Shown here: positions 23,145-64,000 of the stretch, in pieces
How positions within the stretch are numbered: position 1 is the stretch's first letter
How the letters are laid out: each line of letters begins with the position of its first letter
Assembly: GCF_001652265.1 (NCBI RefSeq)
Contig: NZ_LWBS01000198.1
Coordinates: 1 to 64,000, forward strand
Reading direction: 5' to 3'
Origin: Rhizobium leguminosarum
GTDB taxonomy: Bacteria > Pseudomonadota > Alphaproteobacteria > Rhizobiales > Rhizobiaceae
Length of the DNA stretch: 64,000 bases
Notes under the pieces: generated by a model
Database searches by the model: none
Seen by the model: only the letters and a program-made list of their open reading frames with translations
Told to the model about the DNA's origin: nothing
Made by a program: the position numbers and the translations under genes

Positions 23145-23482
23145 GGCTAGTTCCCTTCGCTCAGGCTCGTTGCCGTTAAAACTGAGCGTGAAAATACGGG
23201 CAGAAATTTTAAAACACAAGATGAAAAACTTGAGAAAGTTCAGTGATATCAAACAATTAATCGATTTAAATTTACCCGCTCAATTTTAAATCGTTTGAAA
23301 AGGCTACGTTTAAACATTTCGACGCACTACTTAAGATTGATGGCAAATTTTACGGCAATCATCCTCTTTATCTTTGCCACAATTTGTTCCACCTTTATCC
23401 TCCATAAGCGCATCCGGTCACTGAGACCGCCTGGGGAGACCAAAATCCGGGAGAATGCGCACTGATGACGGAGACCAATACC
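23145..23482. promoter_or_regulatory. Divergent pckA / chvI promoter region
   Basis: 338 bases, markedly AT-rich compared with its neighbours. It contains a 9-bp inverted repeat CGATTTAAA / TTTAAATCG (23262-23270, 23285-23293). Each arm is itself centred on a CG dinucleotide in a near-palindrome (TTAATCGATTTAA and TTTAAATCGTTTGAAA), the layout of LacI/GalR operators. No gene was found here. Confidence 0.6.
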
Positions 23483-62218: not shown

Positions 62219-63040
62219 TTAGCGCAGCTTCGGCCGCAGGGCAACGATTGCCGCGGCCGTTTCCTCGATTGAGCGGCGGGTGACGTCGATCAGCGGCCAG
62301 TTATGGCGGGCGCAAAGCGAGCGGGCATATTTCAGCTCCTCCGAAATCGCGGCGCGATCAGTGTAGTGTTCGCGATCGAAGCCCTGCGTCACGCCGAGCA
62401 CACGATTTTCCCGCACCTGGGAAATACGGTCGGTGGTGGCGATCAGGCAGACGATCAGCGGTTTGCTCGCGACGAAGAGGCTCTCCGGCAATGGCACACC
62501 ATAGACGATCGGAATGTTCGCCGTCTTGATGCCGCGGTTGGCGAGGTAGATGCTGGTCGGTGTTTTCGACGTACGGCTGATACCGATGATCACGACATCG
62601 GCGTCGTTGTAGTCGTCAGGCATCTGGCCGTCATCGTGATCCATGGTGAAATTCAGCGCTTCGATGCGCGCGAAATAGCCGGCATTCATCACATGCTGGG
62701 CCCCGACCCGACGGCGCAACGGAGCGCCGAGATAGATCTGGAAGGCATTCATCACCGGCTCCAGCACATTCACCGAGGCGACGCCCATCTCGATGCAACG
62801 CTCATCGATCAGGCTTGCAAGCTCCCGGTCGACAATGGTGTAGAGCACGATGCCGGGGGCGTCATCGATCGCCTGCAGAACCGGCAGCAGCTGCTTGCGA
62901 TTGCGGATCAACGGATAGACATGTTCGATCGGCTGCGCTGATCTGAATTGCGCCGACGCGGCGCGCCCGGCCGAGATCAGAGTCTCTCCCGTTGAGTCAG
63001 AAATCAGATGCAGATGGAAGAAGTTCGTTCTGTTCTCCAC
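62219..63040 (-). CDS. DUF299 pyruvate,phosphate dikinase / PEP synthetase regulatory protein
   Basis: A 273-residue bifunctional kinase/pyrophosphorylase of the PDRP/PSRP (DUF299) family, which uses ADP to phosphorylate a Thr on PEP synthase or pyruvate,phosphate dikinase and reverses it by phosphorolysis. P-loop [15 protein letters not shown] (about 154-168) and N-terminal [13 protein letters not shown] are typical. As rhizobia use PPDK, the target is probably PpdK. Homologues of this gene (RP001/CC0001 type) mark one side of oriC in Caulobacter and Rickettsia. Confidence 0.95.
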
Positions 63041-63125
63041 GCTATTTTCCGCTGCCTGTTGAAAAGACTGGATGAAACAGAGCTACGGCGGCGAGGCAGT
63101 CTCCGGCAAGGGAAAACATGCCTCC

Positions 63126-63134
63126 TTATCCACA
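63126..63134 (+). promoter_or_regulatory. DnaA box, perfect consensus
   Basis: TTATCCACA equals the DnaA-box consensus TTATNCACA. It lies in the candidate oriC. Confidence 0.85.
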
Positions 63135-63203
63135 TTTCGGATTTTGCGGGTCGGTTTTGATTGGCCCTGTGGACGATGGGGAAGAGATCTATTTGTCGAA
63201 AGC

Positions 63204-63223
63204 CTATCCACAGCCTATCCACA
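63204..63223 (+). promoter_or_regulatory. Tandem DnaA-box pair
   Basis: Two CTATCCACA copies (63204-63212, 63215-63223), each one base off consensus, on an 11-base period (GCCTATCCACA repeated), so both face the same side of the helix. Confidence 0.8.
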
Positions 63224-63441
63224 GCTATAAGAAAAATTGCCGATCCGGAAGGATTTGGAATCATTTTCAGATTCGGCTTCTCCCCGAGATTCGGACGAGA
63301 TGGACAAATCTTTCGGATGTTGTTTTGCAGGCGCGCGACAAATGGCGACGGCAGTGGATGGATTTTAATCCTTGATAGTCACCGACTCTAAGAAATAGAA
63401 ACCTTTTAAAATATCTTTGATTTTTTATAGGGAAGAAGCGC

Positions 63442-64000
63442 TTGAGCGATACGCGCCGAAAGATCATGAGGGTTTTGAGCGGCGAGAGCCTCTCCCCTCC
63501 TCCTCTCTGGCTGATGAGACAGGCAGGACGTTATCTCCCGGAATATAGGGAGACGCGGGCAAAGGCAGGGAGTTTTCTCGATCTCTGCTACACGCCTGAG
63601 TACGCCGTCGAAGTGACATTGCAGCCGATCCGCCGCTATGGCTTCGATGCGGCCATACTGTTTTCCGATATCTTGGTCATTCCCGATGCAATGAAACGGA
63701 ATGTGCGGTTCACCGAGGGCCATGGCCCGGAGATGGATCCGATCGATGAAGCCGGGATCGGCAGATTGAATGGCGAAGAGGTTGTCGATTATCTCAGGCC
63801 GGTTCTGGAGACGGTGCGGCGGCTGCGGGAGGAGTTGCCAGTCGAGACGACGCTGCTCGGCTTCTGCGGCGCGCCCTGGACGGTTGCGACCTACATGATT
63901 GCCGGGCACGGCACGCCGGATCAGGCTCCTGCGCGTCTCTTCGCCTACAGGCATCCCCGCGCGTTCGAGCATCTGCTGATGCTGCTTGCCGACGTATCAG
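63442..64000 (+). CDS. hemE: Uroporphyrinogen decarboxylase (partial)
   Basis: The first 186 codons of HemE, cut by the right edge; the frame is open throughout. The start is apparently TTG 63442 ([14 protein letters not shown]), with GGAAGAAG just upstream; ATG 63466 is the alternative. The signature [21 protein letters not shown] (two parts) and [25 protein letters not shown] are unmistakable. HemE decarboxylates uroporphyrinogen III to coproporphyrinogen III in heme synthesis. The promoter must lie within the origin region. Confidence 0.97.

Follow-up and report, generated by a model that had tools for sequence, protein, structure and literature searches.

The window, meaning the whole stretch of 64,000 bp that was analysed, comprises bases 1-64000 of contig C198 of a genome of 8.18 Mb in 472 contigs. 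The ORF list and family profiles show that a PPPase gene with a GTG start and hemE with a TTG start point away from each other across 401 bp:

62219..63040, minus strand: PPPase gene (PF03618, DUF299/COG1806), left flank, assigned by family profile; GTG start
63041..63441, no strand: PPPase-hemE gap, almost certainly the chromosomal oriC (divergent flanks, DnaA-box cluster, unstable tract, parS-like sites)
63442..63999, plus strand: hemE (PF01208), right flank, assigned by family profile; TTG start, gene continuing beyond the window end

To the left of the gap, PPPase is accompanied by maf, aroE, coaE, dnaQ, secB, fxsA and a Tim44-like gene, with gyrB further out. Past hemE, from a reading of the ORFs, lie genes that we take to be hemJ, rho, trmE, mnmG, rsmG, parA and parB. 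The nearest named relatives of the PPPase protein, at 99%, belong to Rhizobium leguminosarum-complex genomes among the best 80 of 103 matches. These matches, picked by PPPase similarity, define the named loci used below, of which 79 were testable once L008, whose record begins inside hemE, had been left out. The term Rhizobium-type denotes the 64 loci L002-L066 minus L008, some of which are titled only Rhizobiales or Rhizobiaceae.

The initial annotation described a gene-free gap of 401 bp with divergent flanks, and with the GTG and TTG starts placed this description holds. Two ORFs of 85-86 aa listed across the gap look fortuitous because their frames are open in just 18 and 19 of the 64 Rhizobium-type relatives, and we rejected them as coding genes. 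An Rfam search of 62950-63600 gave no RNA gene match, and a promoter and terminator scan at the gap found nothing, with no sigma-70-type match. The AT content of the gap is 54%. Weak start codons persist in both flanking genes across the 79 loci (hemE TTG in 55 and GTG in 13, PPPase GTG in 74). Odd start triplets in 9/79 hemE rows and 1/79 PPPase rows are probably extrapolation errors in distant loci, where the gap ends may consequently be off by some bases.

Five DnaA-box matches were located in the gap, their conservation being scored in 80 aligned sequences:

63057..63065, minus strand: weak DnaA box TTTTCAACA, two mismatches; identical letters in 60/80
63126..63134, plus strand: exact DnaA box TTATCCACA; core TCCACA in 76/80
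63168..63176, minus strand: weak DnaA box TCGTCCACA, two mismatches; poorly conserved
63204..63212, plus strand: DnaA box CTATCCACA, first member of a tandem pair; near-private to the source genome
63215..63223, plus strand: DnaA box CTATCCACA, second member of the pair; core TCCACA in 64/80

One consensus box and one weaker reverse box had been proposed, and these correspond to the exact match at 63126 and the reverse match at 63168. Two tandem one-off boxes at 11-base spacing had also been proposed; they are present in the window, at 63204 and 63215 and 11 bp apart, but the doublet is a strain-level trait, since position 63204 carries CTATCCACA in 1/80 aligned sequences (the window itself), TTATCCACA in 1/80 and the core TCCACA in 31/80. 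Judged by the alignment, the conserved boxes are those at 63126 and 63215, the doublet being nearly private. The second weak reverse box, at 63057, is absent from the initial annotation.

Single boxes say little, because the 64 kb contain 7 with no more than one mismatch, against a mean of 4.5 in shuffles. Three such boxes are nevertheless packed into 98 bp of the gap, and not one simulated 64-kb sequence out of 300 (first-order Markov) contained three boxes within 100 bp. A rival reading takes the gap for a divergent promoter region only, its boxes and GANTC site regulating hemE and PPPase and the replication start lying elsewhere, perhaps 60-200 kb away on the hemE side; we consider this reading very improbable. 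In the complete chromosome of R. johnstonii 3841 (G002), the gap cluster stands alone, no other group of at least two boxes within 250 bp occurring in the 400 kb around the gap (200 kb to either side), and in the examined stretches of a further relative, G003, the biggest cluster also sits at the gap. Both results speak against the promoter-only reading.

The hemE end of the gap is distinguished by its instability and its conservation:

63361..63430, no strand: AT-rich, very unstable tract by nearest-neighbour energy, overlapping the hemE leader and probably its promoter
63368..63400, plus strand: near-invariant block of the Rhizobium-type loci, ATCCTTGATAG..AC.GACTCT.AGAAATAGAA

No 40-step stretch of the window is less stable than the one from 63389, in agreement with the AT-rich tract that the initial annotation had placed next to hemE, and the tract is probably the DNA unwinding element. 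For 70 and 100 steps it ranks second in the window, behind stretches from 23204 and 23202. Bases 23202-23302, away from the origin gap, hold the least stable stretch at both of these lengths. Conservation within the gap is best at the PPPase end with its weak box, at 63101-63140 with the exact box and above all at 63361-63441, whereas 63141-63340 retains 50-68% identity to the window per 20 bp. The block at 63368-63400 is the most strongly conserved part of the gap. It occurs as a single copy in the source genome, allowing up to three mismatches, and the possibility that it is a repeated genome motif was rejected on that ground. By eye, this block can be read from 63372 as a promoter-like TTGATA, 18 bp, TAGAAA, which would place a GANTC site within the promoter spacer. 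Such a reading speaks for the promoter-only alternative, against which stands the failure of the promoter scan to return any sigma-70-type match.

Divergent, back-to-back hemE and PPPase genes were found in 79/79 testable named loci (from the best 80 of 103). Across the 64 Rhizobium-type loci the gap between them measures 398-405 bp (401.2 ± 1.3), and pairwise identity averages 0.667. Two control gaps from the same neighbourhood gave 195.8 ± 3.8 bp and 0.778 identity (hemJ-rho, 63 loci), and 117.6 ± 36.7 bp and 0.437 identity (rho-trmE, 62 loci). The sequence of the origin gap therefore changes while its length barely does, in a comparison with control gaps that are few. The near-constant length suggests that the spacing from boxes to unwinding tract matters, and it counts against the promoter-only reading; a fast-changing origin of near-fixed length also lends itself to a simple spacing test.

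The arrangement extends across the order. Among 121 genomes sampled evenly from it, 100 have PPPase at E ≤ 1e-20 and 21 are without a match. Six of the 100 were left out as they had no hemE match in reach (L204, L207, L212, L239, L263 and L269), and in all 94 testable genomes the two genes are back to back. The median gap is 421 bp, and 71/94 fall in the 350-450 bp range. For boxes with no more than one mismatch, the mean is 1.54 per gap, against 0.09 in shuffles; at least one occurs in 74/94 gaps and two or more in 37/94, while 20/94 have none of that strictness.

Evidence from beyond the gap came from the source genome (G000) and three complete relatives (G001, G002 and G003). Sites resembling parS with at most one mismatch number three each in G000, G001 and G002 and four in G003, against none for a reversed control pattern, and in the complete relatives every one of them lies within about 47 kb of the gap. 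Two of the three source-genome sites are on contig C198 and the third is on C358:

61573..61588, no strand: parS-like site, one mismatch, at the maf/aroE overlap
C198:69908-69923, beyond the window: perfect parS-like site near the rsmG start

Both C198 sites fall inside coding sequence. The clustering of parS-like sites at the gap argues against a promoter region and nothing more. In G002 the gap occupies bases 73-473 of the record, so that base 1 adjoins it, a choice of the depositors rather than an experimental result; dnaA lies 411 kb from the gap in the same genome.

Strand composition gives a less sharp picture. A GC-skew minimum elsewhere had been named as grounds for refuting the origin; this check was only weakly passed, and in a relative, all skew figures here being those of relatives as the source genome is split into 472 contigs. 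In G002 the skew is negative in 17/20 left-arm stretches and positive in 7/20 right-arm stretches (means -0.024 and 0.0006), and the arms differ (Mann-Whitney p 1.4e-4); in G003 it is negative in 17/20 stretches on the left and positive in 9/16 on the right, sums from which L159, the stretch reaching the gap, was left out. Against these arm differences, the raw cumulative minimum of G002 between -600 and +220 kb is 18 kb off, at +18 kb, and the detrended curve has a flat bottom from about -375 to +20 kb. The skew is weak, and the relatives place the switch only to within hundreds of kilobases; a detrended curve that is flat over about 400 kb leaves room for a start elsewhere, as the promoter-only reading would have it.

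The same reading is also favoured by KOPS (GGGNAGGG). In the right arm of G002 there are 44 forward and 1 reverse copies. On the left, the ten stretches beyond -530 kb hold 0 forward and 34 reverse, and -600 to -200 kb holds 4 and 26, one empty stretch being counted in both sums. From -200 to 0 kb the count is 18 forward and 7 reverse, where reverse copies would be expected if the left arm starts at the gap. In G003, -80 to 0 kb has 9 forward and 2 reverse, and polarity switches at about -60 to -100 kb. The polarity switch is therefore displaced from the gap by 60-200 kb on the hemE side in both chromosomes (G002:C1 and G003:C1), and this offset favours a start elsewhere; its weight is reduced by the low numbers of KOPS close to the gap and by the relatedness of the two genomes. 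Our guess at its cause is weak selection on KOPS in the vicinity of an origin. We rejected KOPS as a fine locator of the origin in view of the offset, and retain it as counter-evidence. As for other arm-biased motifs, GGGCAGGG and GGNAGGG are biased in both arms and AGGGNAGG in the right arm only.

Taken together, these data make it nearly certain that the main chromosome has its DnaA-dependent origin in this gap, because DnaA boxes, an unstable tract, parS-like sites and the flanking genes coincide there. Gap length and arm skew converge on the same conclusion, and the chromosomal oriC of the initial annotation is supported. In the mechanism that we envisage, DnaA would bind the boxes seen at 63126 and 63204/63215, aided by the weak sites at 63057 and 63168, and the resulting complex would open the AT-rich tract at 63361-63430, whose instability is computed. 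Helicase would then load at the opened tract and two forks would leave, after which ParB, acting on the flanking parS sites in the manner of known ParABS systems, would separate the copies.

The unwinding tract contains a site for the methyltransferase CcrM, and three more such sites lie further from hemE:

63384..63388, no strand: GANTC (CcrM) site; GANTC at this column in 72/80 aligned sequences
63258..63292, no strand: three GANTC sites (63258, 63270 and 63288); GANTC at the same column in 40/80, 35/80 and 3/80

The initial annotation was silent on the GANTC site at 63384, as it was on the constancy of the gap length. A GANTC 25-75 bp before hemE is present in 79/79 named loci (from the best 80 of 103) and in 66/94 order genomes. 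Its density in this zone across the 94 genomes is 20.0 per kb, against 4.7 in the remaining gap, and the mirror zone on the PPPase side has a GANTC in 17/94. AT-rich composition together with shared ancestry could alone account for an excess of this kind, the tract being AT-rich, the genomes related and the counts blind to phylogeny, and yet we think this account quite unlikely. Seven control palindromes of the same make-up occur in 5, 9, 9, 10, 20, 21 and 30 of the 94 genomes, and in a slightly wider zone GANTC is found in 68/94 against 25.3 ± 4.0 in dinucleotide shuffles, the largest of 500 reaching 47. Moreover, 32/42 families have a zone GANTC at least once (22 in every sampled genome, often a single one), and its distance from hemE varies between families from 25 to 75 bp.

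Upstream GANTC is rare before other genes of the named loci (rho 7/77, hemJ 6/67, secB 3/37, dnaQ 4/76, PPPase 1/80), the hemJ and dnaQ zones being weaker controls that lie largely in neighbouring coding sequence. Yet trmE has one 25-75 bp upstream in 57/72 loci (in the rho-trmE gap, for example L082:11491-11593), so that such a placement is neither usual upstream of genes nor confined to the origin. The trmE sites raise the possibility that CcrM-timed promoters cluster near the origin. The source genome has profile matches for a CcrM-type protein (RAMA) and for GcrA. Searches of 80/94 order genomes, namely all 28 with an empty zone and 52/66 with the site, found RAMA in 77/80 and GcrA in 77/80, the GcrA model also matching one unexpected control, Sulfolobus. 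The proposal that genomes without a zone GANTC lack CcrM was rejected, as 26/28 of them have a RAMA-domain match.

The GANTC at 63384 is most likely part of a hemE promoter that is timed by the cell cycle and read by CcrM and GcrA; a role in initiation itself is possible but less likely. In its strict form, in which the site is a GcrA/CcrM-timed hemE promoter feature only and takes no part in initiation, the promoter explanation seems to us rather probable. In Caulobacter, promoters of one cell-cycle class are distinguished by a GANTC located between -10 and -35 (PMC4287350, excerpt), and transcription of hemE is described there as important for replication (PMC8959179, excerpt); trmE shares the upstream site and both proteins have matches in the source genome. 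Conversely, the promoter scan found none at this site, and because the site is embedded in the origin's least stable tract, promoter and unwinding roles are inseparable by sequence.

Data on CcrM from other species make a direct role in initiation less likely. In Agrobacterium, a member of the same family, ori1 numbers were not significantly changed by CcrM depletion or excess (PMC11514494, excerpt), a comparison that takes the presence of the site in Agrobacterium for granted, and in Caulobacter a ccrM deletion left the DNA content profile normal in minimal medium (PMC3973325, excerpt). By analogy with ori1, whose numbers did not change significantly, the GANTC site cannot be an all-or-none initiation switch. 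On the other hand, Caulobacter over-expressing CcrM is said in the PMC3973325 excerpt to gather extra chromosomes. We also weighed an order-wide model in which a positioned GANTC at the hemE-side unwinding tract would allow methylation to tune initiation, via DNA opening or a GcrA-dependent hemE transcript; we hold this to be unlikely. If true, it would be an alphaproteobacterial counterpart of the E. coli system, where Dam marks the origin, and in Rhizobiaceae it would work without CtrA at the origin. A single GANTC within the origin allows a direct test of how the cell cycle controls initiation in Rhizobiaceae.

The literature searches on GANTC and origins, with the excerpts read, brought up no description of a GANTC conserved at the hemE end of these origins. 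A 2009 comparative study of Caulobacter origins by Shaheen reportedly found CcrM sites kept only among close relatives; that paper is cited in PMC3973325 (excerpt).

CtrA sites follow a different pattern. The motif TTAA-N7-TTAA occurs 0 times in the window and in 0/79 named loci, and the IHF site WATCAN5WTR 0 times on either strand at the gap. Full CtrA sites are found in 34/94 order gaps, whereas four other TTAA spacings give 0-4 and three other tetramers 1-5; among the Rhizobiaceae, 0/4 order-sample genomes have one, as in the named loci. In agreement with this, for S. meliloti an excerpt of PMC4433202 describes the origin as not CtrA-bound and any CtrA effect on initiation as indirect and unknown. 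Having a GANTC in the zone shows no association with having CtrA sites (Fisher p = 1.0), and the idea that CcrM replaced CtrA at the origin was rejected for this reason. The presence of CtrA sites in many families and their absence from the sampled Rhizobiaceae hint at a possible repeated gain or loss of CtrA use at origins.

The closest known system is the chromosomal oriC of S. meliloti. Sibley, MacLellan and Finan reportedly showed in 2006 that it adjoins hemE, has DnaA boxes and replicates. The traits of this type, a hemE-adjacent position, several DnaA boxes and no CtrA motif, are all found here; replication is reportedly shown for S. meliloti, whereas the source gap is known from sequence. 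The two species share a family, and the S. meliloti origin is likewise without a CtrA motif (PMC4433202, excerpt). More distant origins agree in their surroundings: an excerpt of PMC1914354 bears out the claim that hemE and the DUF299 homologue flank oriC in Caulobacter and Rickettsia. Cori of Caulobacter crescentus lies between hemE and COG1806/DUF299, measures 404 bp and has DnaA boxes and an AT-rich element, but it carries five CtrA sites and an IHF site (PMC1914354, excerpt), none of which was found in the source gap, and also the CcnA RNA (PMC8959179, excerpt), where the source gap is without an Rfam match. The 384-bp origin of Rickettsia prowazekii has the same flanks and is about 83% AT (PMC1914354, excerpt), well above the source gap, and CcrM is reported absent from Rickettsiales (PMC3973325, excerpt), unlike the source genome with its CcrM-type match. 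An origin of this hemE-adjacent type is thus expected for the group and already known; the less expected trait is a GANTC at nearly the same place in most of the relatives examined.
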